43,384 nucleotides of DNA from a bacterium (GTDB lineage Bacteria; Patescibacteriota; Microgenomatia; Levybacterales; UBA12049), in the NCBI GenBank assembly GCA_021780675.1, contig JAJXYH010000020.1, positions 1 through 43,384 on the forward strand, given 5' to 3'. Position numbers and translations under genes: made by a program. Positions 28,295 to 40,628 of the stretch are shown piece by piece (within the stretch, counting starts at the first letter, position 1; every line of letters starts with the position of its first letter). The notes beneath the pieces were generated by a model. It ran no database searches. It had not been told where the DNA came from and worked only from the letters and a program-made list of their open reading frames with translations.

Positions 28295-28534
28295 ATGGCT
28301 GGTAAAAAACCCTACGTTTTAAAAAAAGATGCCCTAATTAGCGAAATCGTTAGAGATTGTCCAAAGGCGGTTGAATTATTAGCCGAATACGGGCTTTTGT
28401 GCGTCAGCTGTTTTTTAAACCAATATGATACGCTTGAAACCGGAACTAAACTGCACCACATGGGCAAGGAAGAAATGGATAAAATGATTGATGAAATTAA
28501 CCAGGAACTAAAAAAGAAAGAAAACTTAAACTAA
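28295..28534 (+). CDS. DUF1858 (hybrid-cluster-associated redox disulfide) domain protein
   Basis: LISEIVRDCPKAVELLAEYGLLCVSCFLNQYDTLETGTKLHHM with CxxC. Confidence 0.85.
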   Translation: MAGKKPYVLKKDALISEIVRDCPKAVELLAEYGLLCVSCFLNQYDTLETGTKLHHMGKEEMDKMIDEINQELKKKENLN

Positions 28535-29274
28535 TGAAATCTTTGGAAATAAAAAATCTGCATGCACAAACAACCGACGGGAAAGAAATTCTTAAGGGTG
28601 TTTCCTTAAAAATTAAACAGGGAGAAATCCATACTATAATGGGGCCTAACGGAGGCGGAAAATCAACTCTTGCTCTGGTTTTAATGGGACATCCAGGATA
28701 TGTTATTACTCAGGGTAAAATATTTCTAAACGGAAAAGATATAACCAAATTAACTCCCGATAAGCGGGCAAAATTAGGACTTTTCTTGGGATTCCAATAT
28801 CCTGTTGAGGTACCGGGAGTTAATTTTGCAAACTTTTTAAGAATGGCAGTAAATGAAGAAAAGCAAAAAAAGGACCAACTATCTCCCATTGCATTTAGAA
28901 ACTTACTTTTAGAAAAAGCCAAGAAACTTTCCGTATCGGATGAAATAGTTAAACGGATGCTTAACGAAGGATTCTCAGGCGGAGAGAAAAAAAAGGCAGA
29001 AATTTTACAACTTGCTCTTCTTAAACCAAACTTTGCGATTTTAGACGAACCGGACTCGGGGCTGGATGTTGATGCGCTTAAATACATTGCCAAAACAATC
29101 AATGCCCTGGATTTTCCCTTAGGACTACTATTGATTACTCATTATCAAAGAATTTTAAAATATATAAAACCTGATTTTGTACATATATTACTTAAGGGAA
29201 AAATTGTTAAATCGGGAAAAGCAATCTTAGCGGCTCAGATTGAAAAAGATGGCTACGAAAATTTCAATTCATGA
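28534..29274 (+). CDS. sufC: Fe-S cluster assembly ATPase SufC
   Basis: MGPNGGGKSTLALVLMGHPGY...GFSGGEKKKAEILQLALLKPNFAILDEPDSGLDVDALK. Confidence 0.96.
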   Translation: MKSLEIKNLHAQTTDGKEILKGVSLKIKQGEIHTIMGPNGGGKSTLALVLMGHPGYVITQGKIFLNGKDITKLTPDKRAKLGLFLGFQYPVEVPGVNFANFLRMAVNEEKQKKDQLSPIAFRNLLLEKAKKLSVSDEIVKRMLNEGFSGGEKKKAEILQLALLKPNFAILDEPDSGLDVDALKYIAKTINALDFPLGLLLITHYQRILKYIKPDFVHILLKGKIVKSGKAILAAQIEKDGYENFNS

Positions 29275-30668
29275 AAAAACCGGTAAATATTAAAAATGCT
29301 TACGAATATGGTTTTCATAAACCAGATGAACCCTCTTTTAAAGTTCCTGTGGGCATAAATAAAAAAATCGTTGAGATGATCTCCGATTACAAACAGGAAC
29401 CCGAATGGATGAAAGAAAAAAGACTTAAAGCATACGATGTTTTTAAACAAAAACCCCTGCCTTTATGGGGAGCCGATCTTACCAAATTAAATTTAAATAA
29501 GCTTTGCTATTACAATAACCCATCTCAAAATAAATACAAATCTTGGGCGAAGGTCCCAAAAAATATTAAAGATACCTACGATGCAATCGGAGTTCCGGAG
29601 GCCGAAAAAAGATTTTTAGCAGGGGTTGGCGCGCAATATGATTCGGAAGTTGTTTATCACCACCTAAAAGAACAATGGGAATCATTGGGAGTTATATTTA
29701 CAGATACTGATACTGCGATTAAGGAATATCCCGAAATTATCAAAAAATATTTTGGCACAATTATTCCGGCAACAGATAATAAATTTGCAGCCCTTAATAC
29801 CGCTGTTTGGAGCGGAGGAAGTTTTGTTTACGTTCCAAAAGGAGTACATGTAACTATTCCCCTTCAAGCTTATTTTAGAATAAATGCAAAAGCAGTCGGC
29901 CAATTTGAAAGAACATTAATAATTGCCGAAGAAGGAAGTTATGTGCATTATGTTGAAGGCTGCTCTGCCCCAATTTATACAACCGACTCGCTGCATGCTG
30001 CCGTTGTTGAAGTCATCGTTAAACCCGGTGCAAGGGTAAGATATACAACAATTCAGAATTGGAGCGGAGACGTTTATAACCTGGTTACAAAAAGAATGAT
30101 GATCTACGAAAACGGCGTGGGCGAATGGATAGACGGCAACTTGGGAGCAAAAGTAACTATGAAATATCCTTCGCTTTTTCTGGTGGGTAAAGGCGCAAGA
30201 GGTGAGGTATTATCTTTAGCATATGCTGCTGATGGACAGCATCAGGATACAGGCGGAAAAGCAATTCACTTAGCACCCGAGACGACTAGCACGATTACTT
30301 CAAAGTCAGTAAGTGTTGGTAATGGACGAGCAAGTTATAGGGGGCAAGTAAAAATAATAAAGGGAGCAAAAAAAAGTAAATCTTTTGTAAGATGTGATGC
30401 TCTACTTATTGATAAAACCTCAAGATCGGATACATACCCAACAAACGAGGTCGCCGAAGAAGATGTAAATTTGGGACACGAAGCATCGGTTAGTAAAGTC
30501 GGCGAACAACAATTATTTTATTTAATGAGTAGGGGCTTATCCGAAGCGCTGGCTACTTCCTTAATAATAAACGGGTTTATCGAACCAATCGTAAGAGAAC
30601 TTCCGCTTGAATATGCGGTTGAATTAAACCGTTTGATAAATTTATCAATGGAAGGAGCAGTCGGCTAA
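29271..30668 (+). CDS. sufB: Fe-S cluster assembly protein SufB
   Basis: SGGSFVYVPKGVHVTIPLQAYFRIN..., VHYVEGCSAP, RSDTYPTNEVAEEDVNLGHEASVSKV. Confidence 0.96.
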   Translation: MKKPVNIKNAYEYGFHKPDEPSFKVPVGINKKIVEMISDYKQEPEWMKEKRLKAYDVFKQKPLPLWGADLTKLNLNKLCYYNNPSQNKYKSWAKVPKNIKDTYDAIGVPEAEKRFLAGVGAQYDSEVVYHHLKEQWESLGVIFTDTDTAIKEYPEIIKKYFGTIIPATDNKFAALNTAVWSGGSFVYVPKGVHVTIPLQAYFRINAKAVGQFERTLIIAEEGSYVHYVEGCSAPIYTTDSLHAAVVEVIVKPGARVRYTTIQNWSGDVYNLVTKRMMIYENGVGEWIDGNLGAKVTMKYPSLFLVGKGARGEVLSLAYAADGQHQDTGGKAIHLAPETTSTITSKSVSVGNGRASYRGQVKIIKGAKKSKSFVRCDALLIDKTSRSDTYPTNEVAEEDVNLGHEASVSKVGEQQLFYLMSRGLSEALATSLIINGFIEPIVRELPLEYAVELNRLINLSMEGAVG

Positions 30669-30694
30669 GGTTTGATCACTTGCGAAAACCGAAA

Positions 30695-30719
30695 GTTCTT
30701 AAGCCATCAGGCTAAGAAC
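30695..30719 (+). promoter_or_regulatory. Intra-operon hairpin between sufB and sufD
   Basis: GTTCTTaAGCC-atca-GGCTAAGAAC, flanked by CACTT/AAGTG. Confidence 0.5.
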
Positions 30720-30737
30720 AAGTGAAAATCATTTACT

Positions 30738-31307
30738 ATGGTTAAAAAAATAATTGTAAAAAATGCTGAGGAATTTTTTTTGCCGCTTATTTGGACAGGC
30801 GAGGAAAATGAAATTAAATACGATATCGACCTTAATAAGGAAGGGTCAAGCATAAAACTTCTTATGTTAATTATCGGCAGTAATAACAATTGGGCTGATG
30901 TAGATATAAAAATTACCCACAAAAAACCCAATACCAAAAGCTCTGTTATTGTAAGAGGTGTTTTAAATGACGCGTCAAGAATAAATTTTAACGGCTTAGT
31001 TAAAATTGATAAAGGCTCTGCTCTTTCCAATGCCTGGCTGGCAGCGCATTTACTGCTAACTTCCGATATGGCAAAAGGACGAGCTGTACCAAGTCTTGAG
31101 ATTTTAGAAAATGATGTAAAAGCAGGACATGCAACAACGGTTGGGAAAATTGATGAATCGGAAATTTTTTACTTAATGTCACGGGGTATAAAAGAAAAAC
31201 AGGCCAAGCAAATTATTGTCCAAGGGTTTTTACAAGGGCTACTTAATGACTTTCCGCAGTCTAAAGAAAAACAATCTGCCTTAAAACAAATAAAATATGC
31301 TATATAA
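30738..31307 (+). CDS. Truncated/mini SufD
   Basis: 189 aa; C-terminal SufD pattern GRAVPSLEILENDVKAGHATTVGKIDESEIFYLMSRGIKEKQAKQIIVQGF. Confidence 0.85.
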   Translation: MVKKIIVKNAEEFFLPLIWTGEENEIKYDIDLNKEGSSIKLLMLIIGSNNNWADVDIKITHKKPNTKSSVIVRGVLNDASRINFNGLVKIDKGSALSNAWLAAHLLLTSDMAKGRAVPSLEILENDVKAGHATTVGKIDESEIFYLMSRGIKEKQAKQIIVQGFLQGLLNDFPQSKEKQSALKQIKYAI

Positions 31308-32517
31308 AAAGGATTTCCCAATATTTAAAAATAATAAACAAATGGTATATCTTGATAGCGCGGCGACCAGTCAAAAACCTCAAGTTGTCGTTGATGCCGT
31401 AAATGATTTTTATACTAAAAATAACAGCAATATTCACCGTGGGCTTTACGATTTGGCCCAAAGAGCCGAAGATCTTTATGAAGGAACTCGTAAAAAAGTT
31501 GCCGAATTTATTAATGCAGATAGTAAAAATGAAATTATCTTTACCGGAAATACTACCGAAAGTATTAATTTGGTAACACTTAGGTATTTTGAAAAGGTTT
31601 TAAAAAAGGGGGATATTGTCGTAATATCCGAGATGGAACATCATTCCAATATTGTTCCATGGTTAAGATTAAAAGAAAAACTGGATATAAAAATTTATTA
31701 CATTCCAGTCACCAAAGATTTTTTATTGGACTTTGATAAATTATTAAAAGCTGGTCTTGATTTTAAAAAAGTTAAATTAATATCTTTAACTCATGCATCG
31801 AACGTACTGGGAACTATTAATCCTCTTGAAGAGATTATTCCAAAACTCAAAAGTAAATTTCCGAACGCAAAAGTTTTAATTGATGCTGCGCAATCAATTC
31901 CACATATAAAAGTAGACGTAGTCAATCTGCAATGTGACTTTTTGGCATTCTCCTCACATAAAATGTTCGGCCCATCGGGCTTGGGAGTTTTATGGGCAAA
32001 AACAAAGTTATTAAATGATATGGATCCTTTATTTTTAGGAGGGCATATGATAGAAACTGTTACAAAACAAAAGGCAACTTTTGCCTCTTCTCCACAAAAA
32101 TTTGAGGCCGGAACAGGTAAATTAGAGGCTGTAGTTGGCCTCGGAGCAGCCATAGACTATATAAATAGCCTGAATATTAAAAATGTTCAAAAATATGAGG
32201 ATAAGCTTACCAAATATGCATTATCAAAATTACCGAAAATAAAAAATGTCCAATTTTATGGATCCTTATCCCCCAAATACCGTTTACCGGTATTTTCTTT
32301 TAATATTGGCTCTGTTCATCCACACGATGCTTCCGAAATTTTAAATAGAAAACAAATTAGTGTCAGAGCAGGTCACCATTGCAATCAAGTTTTAATGGAA
32401 ATATTAAATAGTCCCTCAGGAACTATTAGGGCTTCCCTGTCTATTTATAATACTATCGATGATATCGATAAATTAATAGAAGGAATAAATATGGTTAAAA
32501 AAATATTTAAAAATTAA
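31297..32517 (+). CDS. sufS: Cysteine desulfurase SufS
   Basis: YLDSAATSQKPQVV, FTGNTTESINLV, DAAQSIPH, FSSHKMFGPSGLGVLW, VRAGHHCNQ active-site Cys. Confidence 0.95.
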   Translation: MLYKKDFPIFKNNKQMVYLDSAATSQKPQVVVDAVNDFYTKNNSNIHRGLYDLAQRAEDLYEGTRKKVAEFINADSKNEIIFTGNTTESINLVTLRYFEKVLKKGDIVVISEMEHHSNIVPWLRLKEKLDIKIYYIPVTKDFLLDFDKLLKAGLDFKKVKLISLTHASNVLGTINPLEEIIPKLKSKFPNAKVLIDAAQSIPHIKVDVVNLQCDFLAFSSHKMFGPSGLGVLWAKTKLLNDMDPLFLGGHMIETVTKQKATFASSPQKFEAGTGKLEAVVGLGAAIDYINSLNIKNVQKYEDKLTKYALSKLPKIKNVQFYGSLSPKYRLPVFSFNIGSVHPHDASEILNRKQISVRAGHHCNQVLMEILNSPSGTIRASLSIYNTIDDIDKLIEGINMVKKIFKN

Positions 32518-34650: not shown

Positions 34651-34851
34651 TTAAACCCAGGCTTTGGCAGCTTGCTTTGCCTTTGAAGATGAGATTAACT
34701 CGACAATTATTCCCATTTGTACTAATACAGAGTCTCCAATTTTAGGCTTAATATCGGCAATAAAGGCTTGTCTTGCCTCCCCACCGGGATATTTTACAAT
34801 TGCTCTGCGGTCATTGATTTCAATGACCTTACCTGGCGCTGCTATACACAT
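34651..34851 (-). CDS. hypC: Hydrogenase maturation factor HypC/HybG/HupF
   Basis: MCIAAPGKVIEINDRRAIVKYPGGEARQAFIADIKPKIGDSVLVQMGIIVELIS; TGGTAAAAT 6 nt before ATG. Confidence 0.93.
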   Translation of the reverse strand: MCIAAPGKVIEINDRRAIVKYPGGEARQAFIADIKPKIGDSVLVQMGIIVELISSSKAKQAAKAWV

Positions 34852-34903
34852 AAATCTATTTTACCATTTTTTTTATCATAATTTTTTGTTATGATTAATT
34901 AAT

Positions 34904-35407
34904 ATGGATTCCGTTAATAATACTCCAAAAAAGAAATTAGCAATAGGATGGTTTTCTTTTACATGCTGTGAAGATTCTACCATTCTTCTAACTGAACTTC
35001 TAAATCAAAACTTAGATGCATGGAAAAAATTAGTAGACTTTAAATACATCAGACAATTAAAAACGAAAAATGACATGTCAAATCTTGATGTTGCGTTTAT
35101 CGAAGGTGCTGCTTCTTCTAAGAAGCAGGAGAATGAAATGCAAAGTATAAGAGCTAACGCAAAATATGTTATTGCAATTGGTTCTTGTGCTGTAACTGGA
35201 CTTCCGTCTGCAACCAGAAACCAGTTTGTAGACATAGAATTAAACGAAAAAATCCAATGGTACATAAAAACCTTTAGCTACGGACAAAAGGTTAAAAAAC
35301 TTGATGAAGTTGTTAAAGTAGATGATTATGTAGCAGGATGCCCAATGAACGTAGATTTATTTAAACAAACCCTGGACAAATACCTTAAGGTTTTTGGAAT
35401 AATCTAA
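34904..35407 (+). CDS. [NiFe] hydrogenase small subunit (NuoB-like 20 kDa fold)
   Basis: WFSFTCCEDST, AIGSCAVTGLPS, VAGCPMN. Confidence 0.85.
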   Translation: MDSVNNTPKKKLAIGWFSFTCCEDSTILLTELLNQNLDAWKKLVDFKYIRQLKTKNDMSNLDVAFIEGAASSKKQENEMQSIRANAKYVIAIGSCAVTGLPSATRNQFVDIELNEKIQWYIKTFSYGQKVKKLDEVVKVDDYVAGCPMNVDLFKQTLDKYLKVFGII

Positions 35408-35458
35408 TCCCGCAGGACTGGGTTGCACATTGTTTTAAAAATTAATAAAGGAGTTTAT

Positions 35459-36760
35459 ATGCATAGCGGAGATATTACAATTGAAAGCGTTACTAAGATA
35501 GAAGGTTCTGCAGGACTTAAGGTTACTATTGCCGAGGATAAAGTCACGGATTTAAAGTTTATTATCCAGGACTATAAAAGATTTTATACCCATGCCGTAC
35601 AAGGAAAGCCAATAATTTCCGTACCTTCATTTTTATCTAGAATTTGCGGAACCTGTTCTGTTGCACACCTTTTTGCAGCAATCATAGCCATAGAAAATTC
35701 ACAAGGGATTAAGGTTAGCGAACAAACCAAAACTTTAAGACGGCTTGCTTATGACGGACTGATGATAAGAGACCATGCATTACATTTATATTTCTTTACT
35801 CTTCCCGATCTTTTGGGTGTTGACTCGATTTTAGACATACCCGACGATGACCAGAACCCCGGACACGTACTTTTACACGACTCTTTTGACATAAAACAAG
35901 TAGGAACAGATATCACTAATATTATAATCGGTGCTGCGATACATGCTCCTTTTCCAACCCCGGGAGGATTCTTAAAACTTCCCGACCAAAGTAAATTTCC
36001 CGAGCTCATCCAAAGACTTGAAGAAATAAGGCCTAAGGTCTTAAGAGGAATAAAAACATTTTTTGAATGGAAAGAAAGTTTAATAAGAAACTCCGACTTT
36101 TTAGCACTTAGAAATGAAGAAAGGTTTGATTTTCTTGAAGGAAGCCTTATTAATTCCAACGGCAAAAAAGTTAATTCTTCTCAATTTCTAAGTTTCATGA
36201 AAGAAGTTGTAGTTCCCTATTCCGAATCAAACAGTTATCTTTTTTCAGATACGAATGAAGATTATTTAGTGGGCGCTTTATCAAGAGTTAATTTTAATAA
36301 AGATAAATTAAACGAAAGGACAAAAAAAGACTTAGGGGAAATTTTAAATATCTTCCCCTCACACAATTTGTACCATAATAACCTTGCCCAAGCGATAGAA
36401 ATATTACAATGCGTTGATGAAGCAATCGAAATATTAAAAAAGATTCAAGTAATGCCCGAGCCTCCGATAAGAAAACCGGCAGTTGCAGGAGTTGGAATTG
36501 GGGTTGTAGAAGCACCACGTGGCACACTTTATCATATGGCAAAAGTAAATGATAAAGGCATGATTGAAGACTACGACGTGATAGTCCCAACTTCTCAAAA
36601 CCAAATAACAATTGAAAACGATTTAAAAAAATACTTTAATGAAAATATCGCAAAAGAAGAAGACGAATTAAAATTCTCGGCGGAAAAAATTATTAGAGCT
36701 TACGATCCGTGCATGTCCTGTGCCACTAATTTTCTTAAAATGGAAGTAATCCGCAAATAG
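35459..36760 (+). CDS. [NiFe] hydrogenase large subunit
   Basis: ITIESVTKIEGSAGLKV, RICGTCSVAHLFAA (L1), AYDPCMSCATN (L2). ATG at 35459 preferred over 35423 because of AAAGGAG upstream. Confidence 0.93.
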   Translation: MHSGDITIESVTKIEGSAGLKVTIAEDKVTDLKFIIQDYKRFYTHAVQGKPIISVPSFLSRICGTCSVAHLFAAIIAIENSQGIKVSEQTKTLRRLAYDGLMIRDHALHLYFFTLPDLLGVDSILDIPDDDQNPGHVLLHDSFDIKQVGTDITNIIIGAAIHAPFPTPGGFLKLPDQSKFPELIQRLEEIRPKVLRGIKTFFEWKESLIRNSDFLALRNEERFDFLEGSLINSNGKKVNSSQFLSFMKEVVVPYSESNSYLFSDTNEDYLVGALSRVNFNKDKLNERTKKDLGEILNIFPSHNLYHNNLAQAIEILQCVDEAIEILKKIQVMPEPPIRKPAVAGVGIGVVEAPRGTLYHMAKVNDKGMIEDYDVIVPTSQNQITIENDLKKYFNENIAKEEDELKFSAEKIIRAYDPCMSCATNFLKMEVIRK

Positions 36761-37101
36761 TCTAATTTTCCGCTCATCGGAATTCCTAATATCGTAAATG
36801 AACTTATCTTTCTAAGTTTCCGAAGATATTTTAGCTGGAATCCCAAATCATAATCGTGTGCCGTTAGGCTCTTGGTTAAAATCAATTTATCAAGATCATT
36901 TTCTTTAATTTCTGTAACTTCATCTAAACCCATAACGGTGTCTAGAATAATCAAATTTTTAGATTCCGATATTGGAAGATCTTGGTTTACATCAATTCTT
37001 ATAAAATTAATGTCTTTAATTTTTGTCTTTAACTTATTGGCTGTTTTAATTGCACGGTTATCAATGTTTAAATCTTCATTTCCAAAAACATATACATTCA
37101 T
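36700..37101 (-). CDS. Hydrogenase maturation protease (HycI/HyaD-like)
   Basis: MNVYVFGNEDLNIDNRAIKTANKL, NLIILDTVMGL, LTAHDYDLGFQLKYL; ATG with TGTTAAAAT 6 nt upstream. Confidence 0.75.
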   Translation of the reverse strand: MNVYVFGNEDLNIDNRAIKTANKLKTKIKDINFIRIDVNQDLPISESKNLIILDTVMGLDEVTEIKENDLDKLILTKSLTAHDYDLGFQLKYLRKLRKISSFTILGIPMSGKLDYLRITSILRKLVAQDMHGS

Positions 37102-37144
37102 CACTTTATTTTAACACATGATTTTTGATATTATTGTTTAACTT

Positions 37145-37852
37145 ATGGATAAAGCATTGCAATTTGAATCAAGGTTTTCCCTTCCCCCAAACTCGCTTGG
37201 ATACTGCGGTAAAAAAACCGCTGCTTACAAATTTAAGAAGTGTATTCTAAATGGTAAGTGCGATGGCGTAAAGAGTGAAATAAACAAGTTCATTGTACTT
37301 AATCCATATCTTGAATTACTAAAGATTGTTACAAGTAAACAAAAATTTTCATATGAACTTATAGAAAGCTATTGGATCGGCAACAGTTTATTAAAAAAGG
37401 CAAAGCCAAAAGATTTTTTGCTTCTTCTTAAATTTTTTAAAAAGCAGGGGGTTCCGGATTTCTTTATTGAAGAATTAAAAGAAAAATTACCGAAAAAATT
37501 TATTCCAAGCCATTTATTCCAGGTCTTACACGTTGGTGTTGGTAGAGCTAGTGGTTCAGTTCCTTTTAATATTAAAACAATCAATAATTGTATGATCCGT
37601 TGGGGGAAAGTTCAAAAAATATCAAAAAACCATGCAGCTATTAACTTAAATTCACTTAAGGTTGTCGGTAAGGGTAAATATAAATTGGTGAAAATAAAAG
37701 AAAATGTGCCGTTTGACAATCAGATTATTAAAAATCTAAAAATCTCAGATAATGTTGCAGTACATTGGAATATGGTTATCAAAAAACTAACAAAATCCGA
37801 AGAGGAAAAAATAAATTATTGGACAAAAGAAGTTCTAAAACTTAGCTTCTAA
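37145..37852 (+). CDS. DUF6390-like protein, hydrogenase-associated
   Basis: ALQFESRFSLPPNSLGYCGKKTA...ESYWIGNSLL...FQVLHVGVGRASGSVPFNIKTINNCMIRWGKV. Confidence 0.65.
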   Translation: MDKALQFESRFSLPPNSLGYCGKKTAAYKFKKCILNGKCDGVKSEINKFIVLNPYLELLKIVTSKQKFSYELIESYWIGNSLLKKAKPKDFLLLLKFFKKQGVPDFFIEELKEKLPKKFIPSHLFQVLHVGVGRASGSVPFNIKTINNCMIRWGKVQKISKNHAAINLNSLKVVGKGKYKLVKIKENVPFDNQIIKNLKISDNVAVHWNMVIKKLTKSEEEKINYWTKEVLKLSF

Positions 37853-38031: not shown

Positions 38032-38061
38032 TTGACAACATATTAGAATATGCTAATATGT
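38032..38061 (+). promoter_or_regulatory. arsR-type promoter/operator
   Basis: TTGACA (38032-38037), 16-nt spacer, extended -10 TGCTAATAT; perfect palindrome ACATATTAG-aatatg-CTAATATGT at 38038-38061. Confidence 0.8.
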
Positions 38062-38065
38062 ATAT

Positions 38066-38332
38066 ATGCAATCTAAGGTACTTTCGTCATTTTCCAATAA
38101 AACTAGACTTAAACTGCTAATGTGCTTAGCGGGTCATGAAAAAAATGTTACTCAACTGATTGATAACTGCGGTCTTTCCCAATCTGCAGTTTCCCAACAT
38201 TTGGAAAAATTAAGATCTTCGGACTTGGTAAAAACCAGAAGACAAGGCAAAGAAATTTACTATAGCCTGATGTATCCAAAAACCGTAAAAATAAGCAAAG
38301 ATCTGCTTGATTTTCTTGAGGAGGTTAACTAA
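38066..38332 (+). CDS. ArsR-family winged-helix repressor
   Basis: SNKTRLKLLMCLAGHEKNVTQLIDNCGLSQSAVSQHLEKLRSSDLVKTRRQGKEIYYSL. Confidence 0.92.
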   Translation: MQSKVLSSFSNKTRLKLLMCLAGHEKNVTQLIDNCGLSQSAVSQHLEKLRSSDLVKTRRQGKEIYYSLMYPKTVKISKDLLDFLEEVN

Positions 38333-38953
38333 ATGAATTTTGCATATTTCAGAAAAAGCTCATATTCTTTGGACAAAACTATTAAAAATACGGAAAAGTT
38401 CTTACAAAAAGACTGGAAAAAATTAGGCGAAGCAAATTTACCAGACGGGCAAGGAAAAATGATATTAATTTGTAAACCTGAATGGGTAGCCAAAGTAATA
38501 AAAGAAAATTACCTACTGCTTGGTTTTTTACCCTGCTCGATAACAATATTTAAAAAGGGCAATGATGTACTTATCGGAACGGGTCAACCTGACGTAATGA
38601 AAGCATTATCCCAAACCAAAGATATGATTGATTTGGCGACTAAAGCAGAAATTCAAATTAAAGAATTAATTCATAAAGCAGCAGGAGTTGATGAGCTAAA
38701 GCCATCAATCGTGAAGCTTTACTCCACTATGACATGCCCTTACTGCAAAATGGAAAAATCATGGCTTGAGCAAAATAAAATAAAACATGATGTTGTATAT
38801 GTTGATTTAAACCCGGAAGAGGCCCAAAAAATGGTTGATAAAACAGGCCAAATGGGAGTTCCGGTTACCGAAATTCAATATGATGAAGGGGAAGCTGAAT
38901 TTATCGTAGGATTTGATAAACCAAGACTTGAACAATTATTAAATCTTGGATAA
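38333..38953 (+). CDS. DUF302 domain fused to glutaredoxin
   Basis: N-terminal DUF302-like (YSLDKTIKNTEKFL...LLLGFLPCSITIFKKGNDVLIGTGQPDVM) and C-terminal glutaredoxin (VKLYSTMTCPYCKMEKSWLEQNKIKHDVVYVD...GQMGVPVTEI). Confidence 0.88.
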   Translation: MNFAYFRKSSYSLDKTIKNTEKFLQKDWKKLGEANLPDGQGKMILICKPEWVAKVIKENYLLLGFLPCSITIFKKGNDVLIGTGQPDVMKALSQTKDMIDLATKAEIQIKELIHKAAGVDELKPSIVKLYSTMTCPYCKMEKSWLEQNKIKHDVVYVDLNPEEAQKMVDKTGQMGVPVTEIQYDEGEAEFIVGFDKPRLEQLLNLG

Positions 38954-38962
38954 ATATAAATT

Positions 38963-39166
38963 ATGACATGCCCAATTCCAAATGAAAATAAAACAGACAG
39001 AATAATTAGACTTATTACCGCTTTCACATTTTTTATTGTTTCCTTTTTTCTTCTGCATGGATTAACAAAAGATTTACTGATAATTATTTCTTTGATACTC
39101 ATGTTTACGGGATTATCCGGATTTTGCCCAATATATAAAATATTCAAATTTAAAACCAATACATAA
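38963..39166 (+). CDS. DUF2892 inner membrane protein
   Basis: MTCPIPNENKTDRIIRLITAFTFFIVSFFLLHG...LMFTGLSGFCPIYKIFKF. Confidence 0.85.
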   Translation: MTCPIPNENKTDRIIRLITAFTFFIVSFFLLHGLTKDLLIIISLILMFTGLSGFCPIYKIFKFKTNT

Positions 39167-39167
39167 C

Positions 39168-40628
39168 ATGCAGCAAGTTTTTAAATCGCTAATCAAAGTT
39201 TATGAAAAACCATACTCTTGGATAGTTACCATATCAGCAACAATCAGCGTTTTATTTATTTATTACTTTATTTTTCTACAAACTACCACCATAAGCAGAT
39301 TTTTTGAAACAAATATTGGAATTTATGTATGGTTAGAAGTTATATTAAGTTTTGCAAACGCGCTATTAATCGGAATTTCGTTGTCAATGTTTTTAGCAGT
39401 GTGGGAAATAAAACAAAAATCCAAAAATGCAACCTTGTTAACAGCAGGTTCGTTCCTTTTTTCCGCAGTTGTTACGGGCTGTCCTGTGTGTGGAGCATTC
39501 TTATTGCCTCTTTTTGGCATCTCTGCTTCTTTAGCAGCAATGCCTTTCGGGGGGATAGAAGTTAAGCTACTGACAGTTGTTCTACTTATATATGCAATTT
39601 ATGAATATTCAAAAACTTTAATGGGTACCTGTCCGGTAATAAAAAACAAAATTATTGAATATAAAAATGGCAAACTAAATTTTCATATCAATAAACTAAT
39701 CTTAAACCAGCAAAAACCGATTTTTATCCTTATTATAAGTGTCATTTTCATCTACTCATTGCCTTATCTTCCCAAACAATGGAGAATTAATTTTCAAAAA
39801 AGCGGAGTGTCTGCAACGATCATGCCTTTATCATCAACGGAAATAAATGAACAAACAATTAATGAGCAGATTAATCCTAAACAGGGTTATGAAATAAACG
39901 CCAGCTATGGAAATCTGGGACCGGAACTGATCAAATTAGGAGCCATTAATTTTGATAAATTCGCTCAAGTATTTAGTAAATACAATACTTCTCTAACTCA
40001 GGATGAAATTAATATTTTAACTAAAGGGTCTAATGAAAAAATTAAAATGACACAAGATAACGCACATTTTATTCTAGATCTGTTTTGGGCAGTCGGCTTA
40101 TCAAATAACTCTAAATTCTTAACGCAGGGTCAAATTACGCAATACGGTAAAGGACAAATTGGTAATTTTGCATCAACAGGAGGATGGACAATTGGCAATA
40201 ATGACGCCGTGCAATATTTTGCTAAAGCAAATCTTATTTCACTAACTGCTTCGCAAGAAGCCGTATTAGATAGTGTTGCTCCGAATATTTACAGACCGTG
40301 CTGTGGAAATTCTACGGCTTTCCCGGATTGCAACCATGGTATGGCACTGCTTGGAATTCTCGAATTAATGGCTGCAAATAATGCAACTGCAGACGATATG
40401 TATAAGGCTGCAAAATATTTTAATGCATATTGGTTTCCTTCGGAGTATTATCAAATAGCCGCATATTTTAAAAAGAATGAGGAAAAGGACTATAAAGACA
40501 TTGATCCTAAAATTCTTTTAAGCAAAGATTATTCTTCTGTATTCGGATTCCAGAATATCCAGCAGTGGCTAAAAAACAATAATGTAAATCTCAATCCCCC
40601 TGAGGATAAAGTAGGTTGCAGCGTTTAA
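39168..40628 (+). CDS. Membrane protein with CPVC motif and extracytoplasmic CCx8CxH domain
   Basis: Multi-TM N-terminus with VVTGCPVCGAFLLPLFG and LMGTCPVIKN; C-terminal NIYRPCCGNSTAFPDCNHGMALLGILELMAANNA, terminal GCSV. Confidence 0.75.
   Translation: MQQVFKSLIKVYEKPYSWIVTISATISVLFIYYFIFLQTTTISRFFETNIGIYVWLEVILSFANALLIGISLSMFLAVWEIKQKSKNATLLTAGSFLFSAVVTGCPVCGAFLLPLFGISASLAAMPFGGIEVKLLTVVLLIYAIYEYSKTLMGTCPVIKNKIIEYKNGKLNFHINKLILNQQKPIFILIISVIFIYSLPYLPKQWRINFQKSGVSATIMPLSSTEINEQTINEQINPKQGYEINASYGNLGPELIKLGAINFDKFAQVFSKYNTSLTQDEINILTKGSNEKIKMTQDNAHFILDLFWAVGLSNNSKFLTQGQITQYGKGQIGNFASTGGWTIGNNDAVQYFAKANLISLTASQEAVLDSVAPNIYRPCCGNSTAFPDCNHGMALLGILELMAANNATADDMYKAAKYFNAYWFPSEYYQIAAYFKKNEEKDYKDIDPKILLSKDYSSVFGFQNIQQWLKNNNVNLNPPEDKVGCSV

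Follow-up and report, generated by a model that had tools for sequence, protein, structure and literature searches.

A conserved ArsR-glutaredoxin-YgaP-like cassette with a predicted operator in Patescibacteria, and a two-domain membrane cysteine protein joined to it at one locus

Four co-directional genes packed tightly behind a palindromic promoter raise the question of whether they form a single relay that passes a thiol, sulfur or soft-metal species between the cytosol and the cell surface, as an initial annotation of this DNA had proposed, or whether only some of them belong together, and to what they respond. The window (the whole stretch of DNA analysed, 43,384 nucleotides) is contig C12 of a genome of 960,518 bases (herein referred to as the home genome), which is patescibacterial and probably falls within the Microgenomatia; relatives retrieved come mostly from Microgenomates-group Patescibacteria. 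The layout described in that annotation was borne out in ORF coordinates, order and gaps (0, 9 and 1 nt), as was the presence of its cysteine motifs (ArsR Cys20/Cys35, glutaredoxin CPYC, membrane CPVC and CC-x8-C-x-H). Gene calls are greedy ORF calls throughout, the compared genomes are mostly metagenome-assembled, and a search of the window for Rfam elements returned none. The features of the locus are as follows:

38032..38059, + strand: sigma-70-like promoter, TTGACA-16-TAATAT with TG ahead of the second hexamer (pattern match, 10/12 consensus)
38038..38061, no strand: predicted operator palindrome ACATATTAG-AATATG-CTAATATGT, overlapping the promoter; core ATATTAG-N6-CTAATAT at 38040-38059
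38066..38332, + strand: ArsR/SmtB-type regulator gene (88 aa; HTH_5, NF033788)
38333..38953, + strand: DUF302::CPYC-glutaredoxin fusion gene (206 aa; conserved C47, C68, C135, C138)
38963..39166, + strand: gene for a standalone YgaP-like transmembrane protein (67 aa; PF11127, formerly DUF2892)
39168..40628, + strand: gene for a predicted two-domain membrane protein (486 aa), outside the conserved cassette
39168..39692, + strand: N-domain of the 486-aa protein, covering the first four of five predicted helices, one of them broken and bearing the CxxC; occurs on its own in other loci
39480..39491, + strand: CPVC motif, residues 105-108; CxxC in 39/39 fusion proteins
39849..40625, + strand: predicted extracytoplasmic C-domain, residues about 228-486, without a Pfam family or PDB fold match
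40299..40337, + strand: CC-x8-C-x-H motif (C378, C379, C388, H390), in 59/59 sequences

Two other gene groups of the window are recorded here as observations in their own right. Just 5' of the locus (34651-37852) lies a hydrogenase cluster with sulfhydrogenase-like delta (34904-35407) and alpha (35423-36760) subunits, both scoring far below the equivalog cut-offs, together with a HypC-like ORF, a probable maturation protease and a DUF6390 protein. Further upstream, at 28534-32517, the SUF iron-sulfur cluster genes SufC, SufB, SufD-like and SufS stand in a row.

Profile searches assign the first three products to known families. The 88-aa protein belongs to the ArsR/SmtB family (HTH_5, E=2e-13; NF033788, 81.8 bits vs a cut-off of 55). 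The 206-aa protein carries a glutaredoxin domain with a CPYC site (PF00462, 1.6e-12, 47.8 bits vs 22.9) and stays below the cut-off of the YruB-type model (64.4 vs 88.6); as a single sequence it falls just short of the DUF302 cut-off (3e-4, 21.0 bits vs 23), and we nevertheless accept the DUF302 assignment because the family profile of this part matches the solved DUF302 protein 1q9u (E=4.6e-10). The 67-aa protein is a YgaP-like transmembrane domain (PF11127, 1.6e-15, 57.4 bits vs 25.3) that stands alone, lacking the rhodanese domain to which it is fused in YgaP.

To establish which genes travel together, the 206-aa protein was searched against 329 genomes of the class and then across the phylum. 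The class yielded 13 full-length DUF302-glutaredoxin fusions, that of the window included, and many shorter relatives; the phylum search added further relatives in other families. Profile scans of the surroundings of 33 loci, chosen by glutaredoxin similarity and not by rhodanese, found ArsR adjoining the (DUF302-)glutaredoxin in 32, DUF2892 in 17 and a rhodanese in nine. The home genome itself holds a second cassette, on contig C29, that reads ArsR-glutaredoxin-DUF2892 without DUF302. The cysteines are likewise kept among homologues, those of the glutaredoxin CPYC site in 14/14 sequences and DUF302 C47 and C68 in 13/13, so that the annotation's picture of genes 1-3 as an operon with conserved cysteines and YgaP parts agrees with both synteny and residue conservation. 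Its larger claim fared differently: none of the other 32 cassettes examined contained a member of the 486-aa family, and by the refuting condition that the annotation had itself set, a lack of co-occurrence in relatives, the four-gene relay fails. Synteny thus rejects the four-gene unit as a conserved module, and the picture that remains is of a conserved three-gene cassette with one locally added gene.

The cassette comes with a regulatory site. Inverted repeats of the ATATTAG-N6-CTAATAT type lie a few bases 5' of ArsR in most cassettes, and a scan allowing at most one mismatch recovered such a repeat beside the cassette in each of 22 other cassette genomes, usually with no further site, whereas the reversed pattern occurred 0-1 times per genome in the same scan. 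The home genome has exactly two perfect sites, one belonging to the cassette of the window and the other lying at C29:5900-5919. A9 and T12 are common to the aligned sites as well, which extends the symmetry. Part of the right half may have been retained as a -10 element; the promoter gives no explanation for conservation of the left half, and the palindrome is, by comparison of these genomes, the conserved predicted operator of the cassette. The operator goes with the type of regulator, since cassettes with a more distant ArsR (L174-L177) lack the site. Two candidate additional sites were treated as chance. One is a second exact site in G018 that lies inside a long ORF (carB-like by reading); the other, probably chance, is a one-mismatch site in the home genome just 5' of a small cupredoxin-like ORF (L289:2001-2506; C50:12151 in the home genome), without the conserved A9 and T12.

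The regulator, presumed to be an autorepressor, has two cysteines, C20 and C35, that are invariant among 14 sequences, and the same 14 show no invariant C-terminal cysteine. The helix-2 cysteine of SqrR aligns to position 19, one residue off Cys20, and with the NCBIfam BigR model the regulator reaches 53.5, below the cut-off of 155; cysteine positions and the BigR cut-off together rule out membership of the SqrR/BigR/YgaV sensor group. The analogy to YgaV drawn in the initial annotation therefore stands for gene content but not for the sensor site. A weak NCBIfam match to an ArsR named TsoR led to no paper in a literature search.

What the cassette responds to is suggested by its association with rhodanese, the other half of YgaP, which lies repeatedly in the cassette operon or divergent from the same operator. 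On contig C29, the operator sits between ArsR2-glutaredoxin-DUF2892 and a divergent rhodanese (PF00581, 2.8e-20) with an N-terminal membrane/signal anchor and an active-site cysteine, the only rhodanese found in the home genome. Across 24 cassette genomes we counted 17 rhodaneses, eight of them beside the cassette (in G000, G016, G017, G018, G052 and G166, and two in G225), a placement with P ~1e-16 under a uniform model that is indicative only, the genomes not being fully independent (three share a genus, and G017 and G018 share another); in 13 of the 24 no rhodanese was found. Because a rhodanese repeatedly shares the operon or operator, a thiol/persulfide role is the best reading of genes 1-3; the annotation's interpretation is to that extent supported, but its four-gene relay is not.

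Published work points the same way. YgaP, in which a rhodanese and DUF2892 form one protein, is under the control of YgaV, an ArsR-type regulator that uses two cysteines to respond to sulfide (PMC9774250); H2S is formed from sulfane sulfur by the reducing action of thioredoxin and, in E. coli, of glutaredoxin (PMC6831875); and DUF302 genes occur in sox clusters (PMC5037610) and a DUF302 relative in a Synechocystis sqr operon (cited in PMC5061849). Because rhodanese linkage and this literature, taken together, favour sulfane sulfur as the business of the cassette, we hypothesize, with confidence that is about evenly balanced, that genes 1-3 constitute a response cassette for sulfane sulfur (persulfide/polysulfide), a dispersed system of the YgaV/YgaP type. 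Beyond the gene content, synteny, cysteine conservation, operator conservation and rhodanese linkage observed directly, we infer the inducer, the ArsR mechanism and the enzymatic steps, along with the cargo and direction of the 486-aa protein. ArsR would bind ATATTAG-N6-CTAATAT across the -35/-10 region and repress its own promoter until modification of Cys20/Cys35 by reactive sulfur frees it from the DNA; the CPYC glutaredoxin, at this locus a fusion with the cysteine-containing DUF302 domain, would then reduce sulfane sulfur to sulfide, with the YgaP-type membrane piece made alongside. The same operator would also control, in the home genome, the second ArsR-glutaredoxin-DUF2892 cassette and the membrane-anchored rhodanese, which could move sulfane sulfur at the cell surface, and the outer Cys/His domain of the 486-aa protein might hand a thiol-reactive species, either sulfane sulfur or an ion of a soft metal, to the membrane CxxC and on to the cytosol.

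Several observations count against the sulfane-sulfur reading: ArsR lacks the SqrR/BigR/YgaV cysteine pair and stays under the BigR cut-off, a rhodanese accompanies only nine of the 33 loci and was found in none of 13 of the 24 cassette genomes, ArsP permeases or P-type ATPases stand next to some cassettes, and the surroundings of the 486-aa family elsewhere are metal-related. Its main rival is a defence against soft metals and metalloids, in which ArsR Cys20/Cys35 would sense As(III), Hg(II), Cd(II) or Cu(I), glutaredoxin and DUF302 would repair or buffer thiols, and the 486-aa protein would be MerTP-like, its outer Cys/His domain capturing the ion. Metals hardly account for the rhodanese linkage, and we consider this rival possible but rather unlikely.

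The 486-aa protein has no Pfam family and is a fusion of a predicted five-helix CxxC membrane domain and a predicted extracytoplasmic domain. Most of the relatives found in a search of the window's GTDB family (73 genomes) match only its C-terminal or only its N-terminal part; a wider scan gave 564 candidate relatives, of which the best 80 are mostly from Patescibacteria and Chloroflexota. The coupling of a membrane CPVC to an extracytoplasmic CC-x8-C-x-H domain, as first described, was recovered, and structure prediction gave the full model a mean pLDDT of 87, the stretch where the CPVC breaks its helix being modelled at low confidence, and the C-domain alone a pLDDT of 91 and a pTM of 0.89. 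PDB fold searches with the full model and with the C-domain alone returned matches only at E>1. Conservation of C378, C379, C388 and H390, of the CxxC and of C484, the C-terminal cysteine (kept in 58/59), indicates on sequence grounds a real site.

Elsewhere the 486-aa family is found in metal-related company. Fusion proteins in L087, L088 and L089 adjoin MerA (with a C-terminal LSCC) and ArsR, and neighbours of the C-domain include DUF1573, response regulators, HMA ATPases, a HMA-DsbD_2-cupredoxin protein, CsoR-like repressors (20 loci; a representative has a Cu-type C-H-C pattern, read by eye) and CcdA-like genes (at least 37 of 58 C-only loci), the regex tallies of neighbours being lower bounds. 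The C-domain cargo may accordingly be copper or another soft metal rather than sulfur, and the protein's own relatives point no less to copper or other soft metals than to sulfur. The order of a membrane cysteine pair, cytosolic cysteine, last helix and outer domain also resembles MerT then MerP, and standalone N-domains are weakly MerT-like by hhalign (57% probability, P=1.1e-4); against this, the match falls below significance once fused forms are included (2-6%), Pfam MerT does not match the 486-aa protein, and an HMA/MerP domain was found neither in it nor in 58 relatives. Moreover, the 486-aa gene occurs in one cassette only, so its metal-associated relatives say little about the cassette.

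The neighbours bear also on a general thiol-redox role, whereby the N-domain would swap disulfides with a DsbA-like partner, the glutaredoxin-DUF302 protein would supply cytosolic electrons, and the operon would answer stress from disulfides or electrophiles and not sulfur or metal. Of the first 13 loci inspected, almost all have a DsbA-like gene (Thioredoxin_4, CPFC) directly adjoining the standalone N-domain, and the CcdA-like genes beside the C-domain fit as well; yet two VKOR proteins are already present in the home genome to oxidize DsbA, profile comparison shows the N-domain to be similar neither to VKOR nor to the CcdA-like set, and the rhodanese is left unexplained. We consider this reading improbable. 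We likewise rejected the N-domain as a VKOR or CcdA/DsbD homologue (no Pfam match; hhalign about 1% or less), and a search of the home genome for a CcdA-like partner, run without a positive control, found none.

Finally, the fourth gene could be a fortuitous neighbour, co-transcribed with the cassette and functionally unrelated to it, a substantial possibility that we place somewhat short of even. It is present in one of 33 cassettes, and neither operator nor cassette was found at the other 486-aa-family loci examined; on the other hand, it follows gene 3 after 1 nt with no terminator found, in the same operon in its own genome, and standalone DUF302 genes near the fusion proteins of L008, L013, L025 and L086, the only recurring link, mean that the DUF302 link may recur. 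The confidences attached to these readings are not mutually exclusive, and the fortuitous-neighbour reading concerns gene 4 only. The 486-aa protein is best described, from what its sequence predicts, as a surface-to-cytosol cysteine protein and a lineage-specific addition to the regulon. A bolder reading, which we hold to be rather unlikely, is that it represents a new family of transmembrane cysteine relays, with a new outer fold (the CC-x8-C-x-H...C site) and a new five-helix CxxC domain, that ferries a soft metal, or sulfane sulfur, from one to the other of surface and cytosol and is wired here into a Patescibacterial persulfide regulon.

Three further gene families were seen at these loci. 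Small membrane proteins with an invariant CxxC, an unnamed family (L146:5935-6501, L148:5423-5932, L149:5887-6438 and L195-L204), lie almost always directly 3' of a DsbA-like gene and are a candidate new redox/metal partner. An unnamed family of Cys-rich secreted proteins (GSCCSPM ... PCCCKCWRW ... DGCGG; L005:4856-5443, L086, L088, L089, L205, L212, L215), without a Pfam match, adjoins the N-domain and in some loci MerA. Pairs of a BlaI/CopY-like repressor and a BlaR1-like membrane protein, read from sequence (L005, L006, L007, L008, L288), sit 5' of fusion proteins or of a DsbA/N-domain pair.

In Patescibacteria, whose genomes are strongly reduced and in which few stress regulons have been recognised, a cassette that has an operator of its own and is conserved in many families of the phylum offers a testable regulon and a functional lead for DUF302, linked in several cassette genomes to the only rhodanese that they keep. 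The C-domain family, confidently modelled and matching no solved fold, is hence a good target for structural work on extracytoplasmic thiol/metal chemistry.

Among known systems, the cassette most invites comparison with E. coli ygaV-ygaP, with which it shares an operon that pairs an ArsR-family regulator and the YgaP transmembrane domain, a rhodanese in the same regulon and a sulfide/sulfane-sulfur theme. Unlike that system, rhodanese and DUF2892 are separate proteins here, the constant partner is a CPYC glutaredoxin, in most cases as a DUF302 fusion, the cysteine pair of ArsR lies elsewhere, and the operator is ATATTAG-N6-CTAATAT rather than ATTC-N8-GAAT. The Synechocystis plasmid sqr operon (as cited in PMC5061849) similarly combines an ArsR-type regulator and a DUF302 relative in a sulfide operon; here, by contrast, glutaredoxin is fused to DUF302, and no SQR gene was noticed on inspection of the cassette neighbours. 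The 486-aa protein resembles MerT/MerTP in its membrane cysteine pair, its cytosolic cysteine after the next helix and its C-terminal outer cysteine domain, but it has CxxC where those have CC, carries two additional helices at its N-terminus, lacks an HMA (MerP) domain and gives no significant MerT match in the fused form. With DsbD/CcdA and VKOR/DsbB it has no Pfam or profile match, whereas the membrane CxxC and the DsbA-like neighbours of the standalone N-domain are features in common.
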